DNA of 64,000 nucleotides, taken from positions 124,001 through 188,000 of the forward strand of contig NZ_OY780939.1 of NCBI RefSeq assembly GCF_963675975.1, in the 5' to 3' direction. The stretch comes from Halarcobacter sp. GTDB lineage: Bacteria > Campylobacterota > Campylobacteria > Campylobacterales > Arcobacteraceae. The translations under genes were made by a program, and so were the position numbers. Of this stretch, positions 5,365 to 60,346 are shown one piece after another (the stretch's first letter is position 1; every line of letters starts with the position of its first letter). Under the pieces are notes generated by a model. That model did not search any database and was not told the DNA's origin. It saw only the letters and a list, made by a program, of their open reading frames with translations.

Positions 5365-6756
5365 ATGAGTACAATAGAAGTAACATCACCATATGATGAT
5401 AGCGTAGTAGGAACAGTTCCATTTAGTACAAACGAAGAAGTACAAGCTGCTATAGATTTAGCACATGCAACTTTCTTAGATCATAAAAACCACTTACCAA
5501 AGTATAAAAGAGTTGCTATCTTAGAAAAAGTTGCTGAAATTATGTCTTCACAAGTTGAAGAATTAACTAGACTTTGTGCATCTGAAGGTGGTAAACCTTG
5601 GATTGATTCTGAGGTTGAAGTTTACAGAGCTATCAATGGTGTTAAGCTTGCAATTGAAGCTTTAGGTTCATTAGAAGGTAAAGAGGTTGCTATGGGTCAC
5701 ACTGCTTCTTCTGCTAACAGAATGGCTTATACTTTCAAAGAACCTATTGGGGTTGTTGCTGCAATCTCTGCTTTTAACCACCCTTTTAACTTAGCTATTC
5801 ACCAAGTTATCCCTGCTATTGCTGTTGGGTGTCCTGTGGTTATTAAACCTGCAACTCAAACTCCTATGTCTGCTATTAGATTAGTAGAAATCTTAGAAGA
5901 AGCTGGTCTTCCTAAAGGTTGGGCTCAAGCTGTTGTTTGTGACAGAACTGGTGGGGAATTATTAGCTACATCTCCTAAAGTTAGTTTCTTAACTTTCATT
6001 GGTTCTGGTGCTGTTGGTTGGTATTTAAATTCTAAAGTTTCTAATGGTACTAGAGTTGCTTTAGAGCATGGTGGGGTTGCTCCTGTTATTGTTGAGCCTG
6101 ATGCGGATATTGATGCTATGATTCCTGATTTAGGTAAAGGTGGTTTCTACCATGCTGGTCAAGTTTGTGTTTCTGTTCAAAGAGTTTATGTTCACGAATC
6201 TATTGTTGACGAGGTAGCTTCTAAGCTTTCTGATTATGCTTCTAAGTTAGTTGTTGGTAATCAATTAGACCCTAAAACTGAAGTTGGTCCTTTAATTAAC
6301 AACAATGAAGTTAACAGAGTTGAAGAGTGGGTTAACGAAGCTGTTGAGAAAGGTGCTAAAGTTTTAACTGGTGGTAAGAGAATCTCTAATTCTTGTTATG
6401 AGCCTACTGTTCTTTTAAATCCTGCTGACGATGCTTTAGTTTCTACTAAAGAGGTATTTGGTCCTGTTGTTTGTGTTTATTCTTATTCTGACATGGAAGA
6501 GGCTATTGACAGAGCTAACTCTTTAGAGGTTTCTTTTCAAGCTGCTGTATTCACTAAGAACATTGACAAAGCTTTAAGAGCTGTTAAGAGAATCAACGGT
6601 ACTACTGTAATGGTTAACGACCACACTGCGTTTAGAGTTGACTGGATGCCGTTTGGTGGTGCTAAGGCTTCTGGTCTTGGTGTTGGTGGTATTCACGACT
6701 CTATGGAAGAAATGACTAACGAAAAACTTCTTGTTATCAAGTCTCCTGTTTTATAA
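5365..6756 (+). CDS. NAD(P)-dependent aldehyde dehydrogenase
   Basis: Aldehyde dehydrogenase superfamily member of 463 residues oxidising an aldehyde to its acid. The general-base Glu is in VALEHGGVAPVIV (about residue 234), the nucleophile Cys in HAGQVCVSVQRVYVH (about residue 268), and the C-terminal MPFGGAKASGLGVGG and EVFGPVV motifs are present. LEHGG instead of the usual LELGG, with the HAGQVC motif, is closer to phosphonoacetaldehyde/sulfoacetaldehyde-type enzymes than to ordinary GabD (from memory of the families). With the aminotransferase it could oxidise succinate semialdehyde or sulfoacetaldehyde. After about the first 100 codons usage becomes very strongly T-ending (GCT, GTT, GGT, TCT), unlike its neighbours, perhaps because of high expression. 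Confidence 0.85.
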   Translation: MSTIEVTSPYDDSVVGTVPFSTNEEVQAAIDLAHATFLDHKNHLPKYKRVAILEKVAEIMSSQVEELTRLCASEGGKPWIDSEVEVYRAINGVKLAIEALGSLEGKEVAMGHTASSANRMAYTFKEPIGVVAAISAFNHPFNLAIHQVIPAIAVGCPVVIKPATQTPMSAIRLVEILEEAGLPKGWAQAVVCDRTGGELLATSPKVSFLTFIGSGAVGWYLNSKVSNGTRVALEHGGVAPVIVEPDADIDAMIPDLGKGGFYHAGQVCVSVQRVYVHESIVDEVASKLSDYASKLVVGNQLDPKTEVGPLINNNEVNRVEEWVNEAVEKGAKVLTGGKRISNSCYEPTVLLNPADDALVSTKEVFGPVVCVYSYSDMEEAIDRANSLEVSFQAAVFTKNIDKALRAVKRINGTTVMVNDHTAFRVDWMPFGGAKASGLGVGGIHDSMEEMTNEKLLVIKSPVL

Positions 6757-6762
6757 TACTTT

Positions 6763-6787
6763 GTAAAGGAGGAATCCCCTCCTTTAC
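6763..6787 (+). terminator. hairpin after aldehyde dehydrogenase
   Basis: Perfect 10-bp inverted repeat GTAAAGGAGG / CCTCCTTTAC with a five-base loop, six bases after the stop codon. No good T-run follows, so it may be a weak terminator or an mRNA-stabilising structure. Confidence 0.5.
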
Positions 6788-55821: not shown

Positions 55822-56484
55822 TTGTTTTTTCACTATCATCCATATAAACCTTTTTTACATGAAGATACAAAAGCTATTATAGTTGGAACCTTGCCACCTC
55901 CAAGATTTTGCACCAAAGATTATAAAAAAGAAGATGTTTTATTTTGCTATGGTTCAAAGGATAATTTGCTTTGGAAAGCAATTGAAGTGATTTATGAAGA
56001 AAATTTTTTATATGACAACTCAGAAAAAGCAGTAAAAATAAGAAAAGATTTCTTACTTAAGGAAAAAATAGGAATTTGTGATATAGTTGAGTCTTGTAGT
56101 AGAGAAAAAGTTGATGCAAGCGATTTAGGGATGCAAGATATAAAGTTAAGAGATATACTTGGATTTATTAAAAAATATAAGAATATCCAAACTATGATTT
56201 TCACTGGAAGTTTATCTAAAAATTCACCCGAATATTTTTTTAGAAAAGTTTTAAAAGACAACAATATTTCATTAGAGGTTATTGATGAACAAACCCCAAA
56301 AATCCACCTTTTTAAGTATGATAATAGAGATATTAAAACTATAAGTTTAACCTCACCTTCAAATGCTGCAAATAGATATATAGGTTCCACAAAAATATTT
56401 AAAGAAAAGAAAAAGATTAACCCAAATTATACTACCTTTGATTTTAGGCTTGAACAGTATAAAAAAGTCTTCAAAAGTATCTAG
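55822..56484 (+). CDS. uracil-DNA glycosylase superfamily protein
   Basis: 220-residue protein with the UDG-fold opening YKPFL...AIIVGTLPPPRFC (about residues 8-31) and FCYGSKDNLLWKAIEVIY, followed by KIGICDIVESC and a C-terminal SLTSPSNAANRY segment in the position of the H/N-containing motif 2. This pattern resembles the base-excision glycosylase group acting on uracil or hypoxanthine. The normal catalytic Asp/His positions are not certain from sequence, so activity is tentative. TTG 55822 is the start, with AAAAAGGA five bases upstream and no ATG nearby. Confidence 0.65.
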   Translation: MFFHYHPYKPFLHEDTKAIIVGTLPPPRFCTKDYKKEDVLFCYGSKDNLLWKAIEVIYEENFLYDNSEKAVKIRKDFLLKEKIGICDIVESCSREKVDASDLGMQDIKLRDILGFIKKYKNIQTMIFTGSLSKNSPEYFFRKVLKDNNISLEVIDEQTPKIHLFKYDNRDIKTISLTSPSNAANRYIGSTKIFKEKKKINPNYTTFDFRLEQYKKVFKSI

Positions 56485-56569
56485 CTGAATTTTTACTTAA
56501 GAATATTTTTAATATTTTTTTATTAGAATACTGAATGATTATTCATTTATAGATATGTAGGAGTTAGTT

Positions 56570-56665
56570 ATGTATATTTCTGAAATTATGATGTTTGTGG
56601 TTGCGGGATTGGCACTTTTTACTTTGGCTTCTTGGTTTATTACTTTTTTTGTAAAAGAGGATTAA
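56570..56665 (+). CDS. 31-residue single-span membrane protein (paralogue A)
   Basis: Begins MYISEIMMFVVAGLALFT and continues as one hydrophobic helix with a FVKED tail, so an inner-membrane microprotein with one span is expected. TAGGAG lies seven bases before the ATG, and a perfect 30-base palindromic terminator follows. A second gene at 60254 encodes a 30-residue relative; pattern M-[YF]-I-[ST]-E-I-x-x-F-V-V-x-G-L, then FT-[LI]-AS and FV-[KR]-D. Conservation between two separate copies argues that both are real genes. I do not recognise the family. Confidence 0.7.
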   Translation: MYISEIMMFVVAGLALFTLASWFITFFVKED

Positions 56666-56673
56666 AGAGAGTT

Positions 56674-56703
56674 ACTCTACTCAATTTTAAAATTGAGTAG
56701 AGT
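56674..56703. terminator. perfect 30-base palindrome between sORF A and metQ
   Basis: ACTCTACTCAATTTT followed by its exact complement. It lies nine bases after the small-protein stop and just before the metQ stop on the other strand, so it should end both transcripts. Confidence 0.75.
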
Positions 56704-56709
56704 GAAGAA

Positions 56710-57534
56710 TTAGAAAGCTTCTACAATAGAACCTTTATATTTTTCTTTGATAAATTGTTTTACTTCTTCTGAATTTAAAGCTGCATCTAAAGCTTTAATA
56801 TAATCTGTATTTTCATTACCTCTTTTAACTGCAACAATATTTACATATGGAGAATCTTTTGATTCAATAACAATTGCATCTTTTGTTGGGTTTAAATCAG
56901 CTGCTAATGCATAGTTAGTATTAATAATAGCTGCATCAACTTCATCTAAAACTCTTGGTAATTGAGGAGCATCAAGCTCTCTAATTTGGATATTTTTTGG
57001 GTTTTCAGTTACATCAAGTGCAGTTTTAAGTGCTAAATCTTTAAACTTTAAAAGACCTTCTTTTACTAAAATATCTAATGCTCTACTCTCATTTGTAGGA
57101 TCATTTGGTACTGCAATTACTGCACCATCTTGAATCTCTTCTAAAGAAGTGATTTTTTTAGAATATAATCCCATTGGCTCTAAGTGCACACCTACAGTTT
57201 TAACTAAATCAGTGTTTTTGTTTGCGTTAAACTCTGTTAAGTATGGAGTGTGTTGGAAAAAGTTTGCATCTAATTCACCCTCATCAACTGCAATATTTGG
57301 AGTTACATAATCAGTAAACTCAACAATCTCTAAATCATAACCTTTCTCTTTTAAAAGTGGTTTTACAACTTCTAAAATCTCTGCGTGTGGAACTGGTGTA
57401 GCTCCAACTTTAATAACTGTTTTTTTAGGCTCAACTTTTGCAGTTGTATCCTCTTTTTTTTCATCACTAGTACAAGCAGTTAAACCTAATGCAAGTCCAG
57501 CTGCAACTGTAAATTTTAAAATATTTTTAAACAT
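56710..57534 (-). CDS. metQ: methionine-type ABC transporter lipoprotein MetQ (copy 1)
   Basis: 274-residue MetQ/NlpA-family lipoprotein with lipobox LGLTACTSD (Cys about 21). Family motifs are VIKVGATPVPHAEILEVV, VDEGELDANFFQHTPYL and AVPNDPTNESRALDILVKEGL. It would bind D/L-methionine, or another amino acid, at the outer face of the inner membrane. It follows metI by nine bases. A second copy (59.2-60.0 kb) on the other side of metN is about 70 percent identical by eye. Confidence 0.9.
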   Translation of the reverse strand: MFKNILKFTVAAGLALGLTACTSDEKKEDTTAKVEPKKTVIKVGATPVPHAEILEVVKPLLKEKGYDLEIVEFTDYVTPNIAVDEGELDANFFQHTPYLTEFNANKNTDLVKTVGVHLEPMGLYSKKITSLEEIQDGAVIAVPNDPTNESRALDILVKEGLLKFKDLALKTALDVTENPKNIQIRELDAPQLPRVLDEVDAAIINTNYALAADLNPTKDAIVIESKDSPYVNIVAVKRGNENTDYIKALDAALNSEEVKQFIKEKYKGSIVEAF

Positions 57535-57543
57535 AAATCTCCT

Positions 57544-58182
57544 TTATTTTTTTGTAATTTTATATAAATAATCCCCTGCACTTTGACAAACTTGTACAAG
57601 GGCGATAAGTATAACAACTGTATACAACATAGTATCAGTTTGGAATCTATAGTAACCATATTTAATAGCTACATCTCCTAAACCTCCACCACCAACAGCA
57701 CCTGCCATGGCAGAAAAACCAATAACTGTAATAAGTGTAAGAGTAATAGCTGAAATAATACTAGGTAAAGCTTCAACTAACATCACTTTAAAAATGATTT
57801 GCCAATCACTTGCACCAAACGATTTTGCTGCTTCAACTACACCTGAATCAACCTCTTTTAAAGCACTTTCAATAAGTCTTGCAATAAAAGGAGCAGCTCC
57901 AATTGTAAGAGGAATAATAGCTGCTGTTGTACCAATACTTTTCCCTATTAAAAATTTTGTTAATGGAAAAAGTACAATCATAAGAATAATAAAAGGGAAA
58001 GACCTTAATGTATTTATGATTACATCTAATACTGAATAGATTTTTAAGTTTTCTTTTAGACCACCTTTTGAAGTTAATATCAAAATAATTGCTAAAAAGA
58101 ATCCAATTATAACAGCAAAAAATGTTGATACAAAAGACATATAAACTGTTTCACCTAAAGCTGGTAATAAAATATCAACCAT
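57544..58182 (-). CDS. metI: methionine-type ABC transporter permease MetI
   Basis: About 212 residues, six membrane segments. The motif LPALGETVYMSFVSTFFAVI opens the protein and the EAA loop AKSFGASDWQIIFKVMLVEALP docks the ATPase; it ends AGAVGGGGLGDVAIKYGYYRF, a MetI hallmark. ATG 58182 with GAGGAATTATA upstream is preferred over the longer frame; it overlaps the metN stop by one base. Confidence 0.92.
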   Translation of the reverse strand: MVDILLPALGETVYMSFVSTFFAVIIGFFLAIILILTSKGGLKENLKIYSVLDVIINTLRSFPFIILMIVLFPLTKFLIGKSIGTTAAIIPLTIGAAPFIARLIESALKEVDSGVVEAAKSFGASDWQIIFKVMLVEALPSIISAITLTLITVIGFSAMAGAVGGGGLGDVAIKYGYYRFQTDTMLYTVVILIALVQVCQSAGDYLYKITKK

Positions 58183-59138
58183 TATAATTCCTCCCAAACA
58201 ATATCGTGTTGTTTTATATATTCAAGAACTTTTTGCTTCTCTTCCTCTTTTATATTAATAACCATATTTCCAACAATATGAGTATTTATCTCTTCAAGTT
58301 TTCCCCATACTATATTGAAATCCATGTCAAGTTTTCTTGCCATAGTAGTTATAAAAGATTGGTAAGCATTGTCTTTTGGGAAATAAAGTTTGATATTTAC
58401 ACCATTATTTGGTACAACTTCAACCTCTCCTAAAAACTCTTTCATTTTTTCATCTGGTTTTAAAAACAACTCTTCAGTATCATCAAAACCAATAATATTT
58501 CCATGTTCTAATAAAAGTGCTTTTTGTGCAATCTGTTTTACAACTTCCATTTCGTGAGTTACTAAAACAATAGTAATATTTAACTTTTCATTAATCTCTT
58601 TTAAAAGATTTAAAATTGAAGTTGTTGTATTTGGATCAAGTGCTGATGTTGCTTCATCAGAAAGTAAAACTTCAGGCTCTAAAGTTAAAGCTCTAGCAAT
58701 AGCAACACGCTGTTTTTGTCCACCACTTAATTGACTGGGATATGAATCTGTTTTTTCTTCTAAACCAACTAAACTTAAAAGCTCAATTACTTTTTTATCA
58801 ATATCATTTTTAGAATATCCCCAAAGTTGCATAGGTAAAGCAACATTTTCATATACAGTTTTTCTTTGAACCAATGAAAAATGTTGAAAAATCATTCCAA
58901 TCTTTTTTCTAAAACTTCTTAATTGTTCTTTATTTAAATCTTTAATCTCTTTATCATCAACTAATAAAGAACCTGTACTATAATCCTCAAGACCATTTAT
59001 ACATCTAAGAAGTGTAGATTTACCAGCTCCACTATGTCCAACTATAGCAAAGATTTCACCCTCTTTTATATCAATAGAAATATCATTTAAAACTTTTACA
59101 TCACCATAATACTTATTTAGATTTTTAATACTAATCAT
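58182..59138 (-). CDS. metN: methionine-type ABC transporter ATPase MetN
   Basis: 318 residues. Walker A is [14 protein letters not shown], the signature is [16 protein letters not shown], Walker B is [14 protein letters not shown] and the switch His lies in [11 protein letters not shown]-terminal NIL/ACT-type domain (about 245-318; [20 protein letters not shown]) is present, the regulatory domain by which methionine inhibits transport in characterised MetN proteins. Confidence 0.94.
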
Positions 59139-59197
59139 AAATTATCCTTATTACACGCGAATAGTATAAAAAGTTTTATAAAAAAAATGTTAAGTAG

Positions 59198-59213
59198 TTA
59201 TACAATTGTATAA
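59198..59213. promoter_or_regulatory. 16-base perfect palindrome upstream of metN
   Basis: TTATACAATTGTATAA lies between the metQ copy 2 stop codon and metN, about 60 bases before the metN start. A -10-like TATACT sits nearer the gene. Candidate operator; a related half site appears upstream of the amino-acid ABC operon at about 21.55 kb. Confidence 0.4.
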
Positions 59214-59226
59214 ATTATATGTAGAA

Positions 59227-60039
59227 TTAAAAAGCCTCTACTATTGAGCCTTTATATTTGTTTTGAATAAACTCTTTAACCTCTTTAGAATTTAGTACTT
59301 CATCTAAAGCTTTAATATAATCCTTTTTTTCATTACCTCTTTTAACTGCAATTATATTTGCATATTTAGAATCCTTTGATTCTATTGCTATAGCATCTTT
59401 TAATGGATTTAATCCAGAAGATAAGGCATAATTGGTGTTTATAACTGCTGCATCAATATCATCTAATATTCTAGGTAGTTGAGCTGCATCAAGCTCTTTT
59501 ATAAATAGATTTTTTGGATTTTTTTCTATATCTAGTACAGTTTTAGTAGAAACTTTTTTTAATGTTAATAACCCTATGCTTTCCAGTAAATCCAAAGCTC
59601 TACTTTTGTTTGTGGCATCATTTGGTATTGCAATTATAGATTCATCTTCTAAATTTTTAAGATTATTAATTTTTTTTGAATAAAGTCCCATAGGTTCTAA
59701 GTGAACACTTACAGTTTTTACTAAATGGGTTTTTCTATTTTTATTAAATTCGTATAAATAAGGAGCATGTTGAAAAAAGTTTGCATCTAACTCCCCCTCA
59801 TCAACTGCAATATTAGCTGTAACATAATCTGTTACACTTTTAATCTCTAAATCATAGCCTTTCTTTTTTAATAAAGGTCGAATAAATTCTAAAATTTCAC
59901 CGTGTGGAATTGGTGTTGCACCAACTTTTATTACATTTTTTTCTAATTCAAATTTTTTATTTTTTTTGGTATCTGAACATGAAGTAAAAAACAATGTCAA
60001 AATAGTAATTAGAAAAATACTAGAGATTGTTTTTAACAC
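59227..60039 (-). CDS. methionine-type ABC transporter lipoprotein (MetQ copy 2)
   Basis: 270-residue MetQ-family lipoprotein with lipobox LFFTSCSDTKK. It has the same motifs as copy 1 (VIKVGATPIPHGEILEFI, DEGELDANFFQHAPYL). The start is GTG 60039 with AAAAGGAAGCCT before it. It is the first gene of the minus-strand metQ2-metN-metI-metQ1 block, separated from metN by 88 bases with a palindrome. A second binding protein may widen the ligand range. Confidence 0.88.
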   Translation of the reverse strand: MLKTISSIFLITILTLFFTSCSDTKKNKKFELEKNVIKVGATPIPHGEILEFIRPLLKKKGYDLEIKSVTDYVTANIAVDEGELDANFFQHAPYLYEFNKNRKTHLVKTVSVHLEPMGLYSKKINNLKNLEDESIIAIPNDATNKSRALDLLESIGLLTLKKVSTKTVLDIEKNPKNLFIKELDAAQLPRILDDIDAAVINTNYALSSGLNPLKDAIAIESKDSKYANIIAVKRGNEKKDYIKALDEVLNSKEVKEFIQNKYKGSIVEAF

Positions 60040-60069
60040 AGGCTTCCTTTTTAAATATCATACAAACAA

Positions 60070-60081
60070 TGACTTAAGTCA
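60070..60081. promoter_or_regulatory. palindrome upstream of metQ copy 2
   Basis: TGACTTAAGTCA is a perfect 12-base palindrome, and on the minus strand the wider sequence TTGTGACTTAAGTCATT is close to a CRP-type site. It lies 31 bases before the GTG start, in the divergent region between metQ copy 2 and the second small-protein gene. Confidence 0.35.
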
Positions 60082-60253
60082 CAATATATTAATCCTATAA
60101 TATAAAAAACTTAATAAAATCAGCTTAATCATTAGTATTAAAAATATACAATTTATCTTAAATGGGAAATTAATTAACTAATTTACTTAAAAATAGATTT
60201 AGAATTTATGTCTTATACTGTAATTGCTAAACAATTTAATATAAGGATATATC

Positions 60254-60346
60254 ATGTTTATTACAGAAATAGCTATTTTTGTTGTATGTGGTCTTATAGC
60301 TTTTACAATTGCTAGTGGAATAGTTAGTGCTTTTGTAAGGGATTAG
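60254..60346 (+). CDS. 30-residue single-span membrane protein (paralogue B)
   Basis: Begins MFITEIAIFVVCGLIAFT and ends SAFVRD; one hydrophobic span with a short charged tail. ATAAGGATATATC precedes the ATG and a terminator follows, so it has the build of an independent gene. It aligns without gaps, except one residue near the end, with the 31-residue protein at 56570. A TATACT -10-like element lies about 40 bases upstream. Function is unknown. Confidence 0.7.
   Translation: MFITEIAIFVVCGLIAFTIASGIVSAFVRD

Follow-up and report, generated by a model that had tools for sequence, protein, structure and literature searches.

The window analysed here, a stretch of 64,000 nucleotides corresponding to bases 124001-188000 of the 3.27 Mb single-contig genome of Halarcobacter sp. 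(the home genome), harbours two microprotein genes, A1 and A2, located on either side of a block of methionine transporter-like genes. A first-pass annotation of this DNA, made from the letters alone, had described the two products as paralogous single-span proteins of 30-31 residues, each preceded by a ribosome-binding site, and both open reading frames (ORFs) and both sites were indeed found (Table 1). Its claim that the two proteins resemble each other more than chance would allow held as well: A1 and A2 are identical at 15 of 30 residues, compared with a mean of 5.5 in 200,000 class-preserving shuffles in which the hydrophobic/polar pattern was kept (p=1.5e-5). What that annotation missed was a third paralogue, B, encoded in the home genome away from the window (G000:C1:953921). 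The hydropathy maxima of the three home members (Kyte-Doolittle, 19-residue segments) ranged from 2.29, the value of A1, to 2.69.

Table 1 Features in and around the A1-A2 region (positions in the window)
Feature	Position	Strand	Description	Source
Microprotein A1	56570-56665	+	31 amino acids (aa), one predicted membrane span, MYISEIMMFVVAGLALFTLASWFITFFVKED	ORF list
Microprotein A2	60254-60346	+	30 aa, MFITEIAIFVVCGLIAFTIASGIVSAFVRD, without palindrome	ORF list
Ribosome-binding site of A1	56559-56563	+	AGGAG	Read from sequence
Ribosome-binding site of A2	60243-60247	+	AAGGA	Read from sequence
Palindrome	56532-56547	none	TGAATGATTATTCATT, upstream of A1, common to hydrogenase-regulon promoters	Sequence comparison
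-10-like hexamer	56524-56529	+	TAGAAT, 2 bp upstream of the palindrome; such evidence is weak where DNA is AT-rich, and the hexamer is not among the sigma-70 scan matches	
Terminator-like hairpin	56674-56703	-	T-rich tail on the - strand	Terminator scan
metQ-metI-metN-metQ block	56710-60039	-	Context only	Model matches

Homologues were sought in the 104 genomes of the taxonomic family, to which the genome counts below refer. The A1 sequence alone matched 26 of them at E values up to 1, some by chance, and already recovered most of the members. A profile of 22 members found 42 places in 25 genomes at E <= 1.9e-8, the next match standing at 6e-4; sequences that went into a profile are bound to match it, which applies to 22 of these 42. 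A 37-row profile returned the same 42 places, now at 1.1e-10 or better, and added one divergent protein (E 0.00145) located at the B position of G078, of which it is the positional orthologue. Among the 398 genomes of the order (members of the taxonomic family included), no strong match was found outside the taxonomic family; weaker order-wide matches start at 3.9e-4, many of them falling within long frames or spanning stop codons, a minority of these matches having been inspected. Among the weak profile matches in genus g2 (E about 1e-3), the three inspected (L062, L063 and L071) were rejected as a different protein of 52-55 aa, and no family-like ORF was present in L052 and L053. The microproteins occur in genera g1, g3, g4, g15 and g17 and are single-span proteins of 30-38 aa. 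The first-pass annotation had recognised no named family, and none was detected here: the three home members obtained only NCBIfam scores below cut-off, and in the Pfam scan, which covered A1 and A2 but not B, A1 had a single score, also below cut-off, and A2 none. Scans of 37 members returned scattered unrelated weak models (best E 0.0013 and 0.0014), and PDB profile searches with three alignments gave matches at E 1.1 or worse, or none.

A1 is present in 19 genomes including the home genome (in G035 it sits at another locus, as a tandem pair), and A2 in the home genome plus G054, G057 and G068. Ten genomes carry A1 and B, one A1 and the divergent B, three A1 and A2, three A1 only and six B only, while the home genome has A1, A2 and B, and G035 has A1, its tandem copy and B. 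In a tree of 42 rows, which rests on 32 columns and resolves little, the B rows fall together across a branch with support 91/90, and 18 A1 rows form a clade (95/80) that does not include A2. At the B sites of G054, G057 and G068, which were read directly, B is gone and its neighbours are still present; its absence from three of the four A2-bearing genomes suggests that A2 may stand in for B, yet the home genome keeps all three paralogues.

The family is clearly under purifying selection. The pooled ratio of nonsynonymous to synonymous substitution (dN/dS) was 0.38 for A1 (54 of 171 pairs), 0.10 for A2 (3 of 6) and 0.31 for B (64 of 153), the pools comprising pairs with a proportion of synonymous differences (pS) between 0 and 0.6, with all other pairs dropped. 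In disjoint close pairs chosen by hand, synonymous differences outnumbered nonsynonymous ones both in A1 (39.8 vs 25.2 in seven pairs, p=1.3e-11) and in A2 (23.7 vs 12.3 in two pairs, p=5e-8), although about 77% of the sites in this test are nonsynonymous; disjoint B pairs, equally hand-picked, gave a binomial p = 3e-12. The first-pass annotation had named lack of homologues and lack of coding constraint as the outcomes that would speak against it; 42 clear members and purifying selection were found instead.

M1 and F17 never vary among the 40 distinct sequences; I6 and L14 occur in 39, S21 and F27 in 36, G13 in 34 and F9 in 33, and residue 5 is mostly acidic in A. Conservation between residues 5 and 27 follows a 100 degree periodicity (permutation p=0.006 for all members, 0.003 for B), and the conserved face formed by I6, F9, G13/L14, F17, S21, V24 and F27 is likely a docking surface. 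Mean net charge from residue 25 onwards was +3.3 in B, +0.4 in A1 and 0.0 in A2, and over residues 1-6 it was -0.2, -0.95 and -0.75, respectively. By the positive-inside rule, these values would point to an N-out/C-in topology in the inner membrane, an argument that is weak for A2.

The feature that distinguishes A1 from its paralogues is the palindrome in its upstream region. The core TGAA[TC]N4[AG]TTCA, a pattern set after the sites had been seen, lies at most 150 bases from the start of A1 at 19 of 19 loci and is found at each copy of the G035 tandem pair, whereas it precedes none of the 4 A2 genes and none of the 18 B genes (one of which had only 87 upstream bases); shuffled upstream regions predict 0.02 cores for all A1 genes together. 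The exact 16-mer TGAATGANNATTCATT occurred at 21 sites in 11 genomes (0-4 per genome) vs 1 control match, and the 14-mer TGAATGANNATTCA at 26 sites in 6 genomes vs 7 control matches. The six 14-mer sites of the home genome precede A1, a hydrogenase small-subunit gene scoring above the hydA cut-off, a TetR-family gene situated inside the hydrogenase cluster, a Tat-type molybdoreductase gene whose best model is the thiosulfate reductase PhsA (sulfur-type, below cut-off), a DUF3373 gene and an outer-membrane-like gene for which no Pfam match was obtained; the second home hydrogenase operon carries the palindrome with one mismatch. A1 is therefore very probably a member of this palindrome regulon, and because its palindrome is common to hydrogenase genes, its function probably concerns respiration rather than methionine uptake.

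All 20 palindrome-bearing promoters (A1 and the tandem copy) have a -10-like hexamer at a distance of 1-15 bases upstream of the site. Hexamers matching at least 5 of 6 positions within 22 bp upstream of the palindrome were present in 20 of 20 promoters vs 10 of 20 expected from shuffles, a difference that is supportive only, and a sigma-70 promoter scan gave 15 matches, fewer than in shuffles (23.8). In both home hydrogenase operons one site stands just before the ribosome-binding site, as at A1. Operators lying over the start region have a repressor-type placement, and repression of A1 by the TetR regulator is the somewhat better supported mode of action. Separately, we noted that the palindrome promoters form a compact set (L183:9461-9474 and L183:9529-10119 of the home genome, with L033, L034 and L039), comprising two hydrogenase operons, the FadR-like TetR gene and the sulfur-type molybdoreductase, and that this set recurs in other genomes of the taxonomic family.

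The regulator has a TetR_N domain (Pfam) and its best NCBIfam model is Bacillus FadR (E 5.4e-11), but it was rejected as an orthologue of the Bacillus protein, having scored 42.6 bits vs the NF053878 cut-off of 200; in contrast to FadR of Bacillus, the targets that recur here are genes of hydrogenase and respiration. TetR-type regulators of this kind occur in 67 of the 104 genomes, including all 25 with microproteins, and in G001 and G083 the gene is present without any site of the looser pattern described below. The type of hydrogenase that is preceded by the site in the home genome was found in 36 of the 104 genomes at >=81% identity (one of them partial), in 19 of 19 A1 genomes and in three of the six genomes with B only. 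Judged from sequence, the TetR protein is likely to be the regulator that binds the palindrome. The palindrome core, TGAAT-N4-ATTCA, is compatible with an ArgR box as well, although no search for ArgR was made; TetR is favoured over ArgR- and FNR-type readings because a site precedes the TetR gene itself and because the protein matches a FadR-like model.

From these data we tentatively favour a reading in which A1 supports a respiratory membrane complex, as an accessory subunit or as a stabiliser, and is made when the hydrogenase regulon is on, B and A2 being copies outside that control. Small proteins of the phylum that act with terminal oxidases, CcoY and CioY (described below), offer a precedent for such a role. 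A1, A2 and B would constitute one family of 30-38 aa single-span proteins docking via their conserved helix face on a larger membrane protein. The FadR-like TetR regulator encoded in the hydrogenase cluster, probably autoregulated, would act, most likely by repression, at the palindrome that lies over the start region of A1; A1 would be made together with the hydrogenase and the sulfur-type molybdoreductase, and would then assist or stabilise a respiratory membrane complex operating in this mode. B, and A2 in some genomes, would in turn represent isoforms that escape TetR control for lack of the palindrome. The first-pass annotation had suggested that the microproteins might stabilise a larger membrane complex, either the methionine transporter or a respiratory one; the accessory role remains plausible, as does the respiratory option, while the transporter does not, since 8 of 19 A1 loci have no metQIN.

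Several observations weigh against this reading. No partner gene is adjacent, and the correlation of A1 with the hydrogenase is confounded by phylogeny, as shared ancestry could produce it. Three genomes of the same genus (G058, G065 and G067) have the TetR gene and the hydrogenase with no detected family member, and A1 is therefore not obligatory for that system. Although preceded by the palindrome, the tandem copy of G035 clusters with B in the tree, and clade A alone has no significant helix periodicity (p=0.10). The palindrome resembles the FadR operator, the consensus string of which was not found in the literature searched. In 14 further genomes, the looser pattern TGAATGANNRTTCA gave 34 sites vs 29 control matches; 17 of the 30 loci shown precede hydrogenase small-subunit, molybdoreductase or TetR genes, whereas the other 13 have different neighbours, among them NrfH-like, FrdC-like and rhodanese-like genes (named by eye), with several sites inside long ORFs. 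Many lone matches are thus due to chance, and in these genomes the number of sites says little; what counts is the recurring position before the same types of genes. Finally, the TetR and molybdoreductase genes have the site at a greater upstream distance, followed by an A/T-rich -10-like sequence, so that activation or -35 occlusion could apply.

Two variants of the favoured reading specify the partner or the switch. That the hydrogenase itself is the partner of A1 appears somewhat unlikely. It is unlikely, too, that a single small subunit of a respiratory complex exists in exchangeable isoforms, A1 and B/A2, and that a FadR-like TetR regulator, repurposed in Arcobacter-like bacteria for running hydrogen and sulfur respiration, swaps them when this mode is switched on; if true, a respiratory complex of bacteria would here switch isoforms by means of a 31-residue subunit.

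A possible, if doubtful, alternative is that the proteins dock on the cbb3 oxidase, bc1 or another always-used complex, A1 being an extra copy placed under the hydrogenase regulon. The conserved face that A and B have in common and the absence of the palindrome from B would agree with it, and so would the precedents offered by small oxidase proteins of the phylum. CcoY of Campylobacter jejuni (Cj1485, 33 aa), whose deletion lowers cbb3 activity, resembles the family in phylum, size, central transmembrane helix and a role in respiration, according to the parts consulted of PMC8267372. It differs in being encoded in the oxidase gene cluster. CioY (34 aa) binds CioA of the C. jejuni CioAB oxidase and is similar in size and in having mostly one transmembrane helix, while its homologues are encoded downstream of oxidase genes and have W, P and Y conserved (PMC11955535). 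Compared with CioY by description only, the family differs in having no P in any of its 42 members and no linkage to oxidase genes. Against docking on an always-used complex stands the home cbb3 operon, which already encodes a CcoY-like protein of 30 aa (L188:7553-7645), between a 79 aa ORF in the CcoX position and a 208 aa ORF in the CcoZ position; it is separate from the family, and homology between them was rejected, since the resemblance was no greater than that of shuffles. Similarity to CcoM of the Pseudomonas stutzeri cbb3 oxidase likewise fails. This protein, which we take to be chain N of PDB 5djq (the entry reads putative uncharacterized protein), has 36 aa, one span and a basic C-terminus like the family, and starts with MFVD where some B proteins start with MFLD or MYLD; its gene lies outside the oxidase operon. 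Homology was nevertheless discarded, since hhalign assigned a probability of 6% over 7 columns and 205 to 1184 of 3000 class-preserving shuffles, depending on the model, scored as well.

Self-assembly of the family into homo-oligomers with a lipid or membrane-stress function, and no larger partner, seems quite unlikely. The conserved face has one small residue four positions before F17 (G13) and another four positions after it (S21), which would suit self-packing, but small proteins of respiratory regulons, to our knowledge, usually have a large complex as their target. Type I toxin-like hydrophobic peptides are very unlikely: size, hydrophobicity, the existence of paralogues and the one tandem pair (G035) would fit, whereas the palindrome common to respiratory genes, the same chromosomal positions across genera, the mostly acidic residue 5 in A and the conserved helix face would not.

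If the favoured reading is true, an unnamed family would be added to the small accessory proteins of respiratory membranes, assigned to a regulon without gene neighbours, since the promoter footprint and not an operon points to its function; A1 should then be made with the hydrogenase, which makes its partner testable. In that case a compact TetR-linked regulon for hydrogen/sulfur respiration comes to light in Arcobacter-like bacteria as well. Among the papers listed on small proteins, TetR and hydrogenase in Arcobacter-type bacteria, screened by title and abstract with subscription papers mostly uncovered, no earlier description of the family or of the regulon was found, and the portions consulted of PMC4584990 and PMC7755780 describe neither.

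The met block between A1 and A2 comprises genes matching MetQ, MetI, MetN and MetQ models, of which MetI alone exceeds its curated cut-off; in agreement with the first-pass annotation, the two microprotein genes lie outside the block, and they are convergent to its genes. It had also given each microprotein gene its own terminator. No + strand terminator-like site is listed behind A1 or A2 in the scan of the region, which returned 3 sites vs 1.4 expected in shuffles, and the hairpin behind A1 reads as serving metQ rather than A1 because its T-rich tail is on the - strand. The copies did not track with metNIQ, and a conserved linkage of A1 to these genes was rejected: metQIN is next to A1 at 10 of 19 loci and missing at 8 (six of the A1 genomes without it belonging to g15), one locus runs off its contig, and none of the 18 B stretches fetched contains metQ, metI or metN. 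That A1 and A2 are small subunits or regulators of the MetNIQ transporter is thus scarcely credible, in spite of the 10 adjoining loci and of the existence of small single-span transporter proteins such as AcrZ and KdpF, given the loci without metQIN, the convergent orientation of A1 and the met genes, and the sharing of the A1 palindrome with hydrogenase genes. A met block probably inserted at a locus that already carried A1, which would make the bracketing accidental.

Neighbouring genes were named by eye, except for murI, rho and metI/N/Q, which were checked with models. At most loci A1 is preceded by a glycosylase-like gene and murI, and the B stretches contain hisIE (17 of 18), mrp (13 of 18) and metH (10 of 18, behind hisIE and other genes). 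In L077 (G060) the segment has been rearranged, A1 and the met block being flanked by murI on one side and the glycosylase-like gene on the other instead of following both. The glycosylase-like gene of the window (55822-56484) is related to DNA-deoxyinosine glycosylase, below the TIGR04274 cut-off; among the 7 loci with relatives returned by a search that may omit near-identical records, the nearest three are from Arcobacter/Aliarcobacter (61-63% identity) and others from Flavobacteriaceae.

Two other conserved small proteins were met in the course of the analysis. The 52-55 aa protein of L062, L063 and L071 (genus g2, near position 1500) is also single-span and is encoded upstream of a 473-488 aa ORF that we take for glyS. 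At L107 (about 6661-6786), and also in L201, L203 and L207, a microprotein of 38-41 aa that begins with the hydrophobic stretch MP[LF]L[IL]P[IL]A and has a K/R-rich tail adjoins a Fur-family-looking gene, with a Fur-box-like inverted repeat, recognised by eye, upstream in G057.

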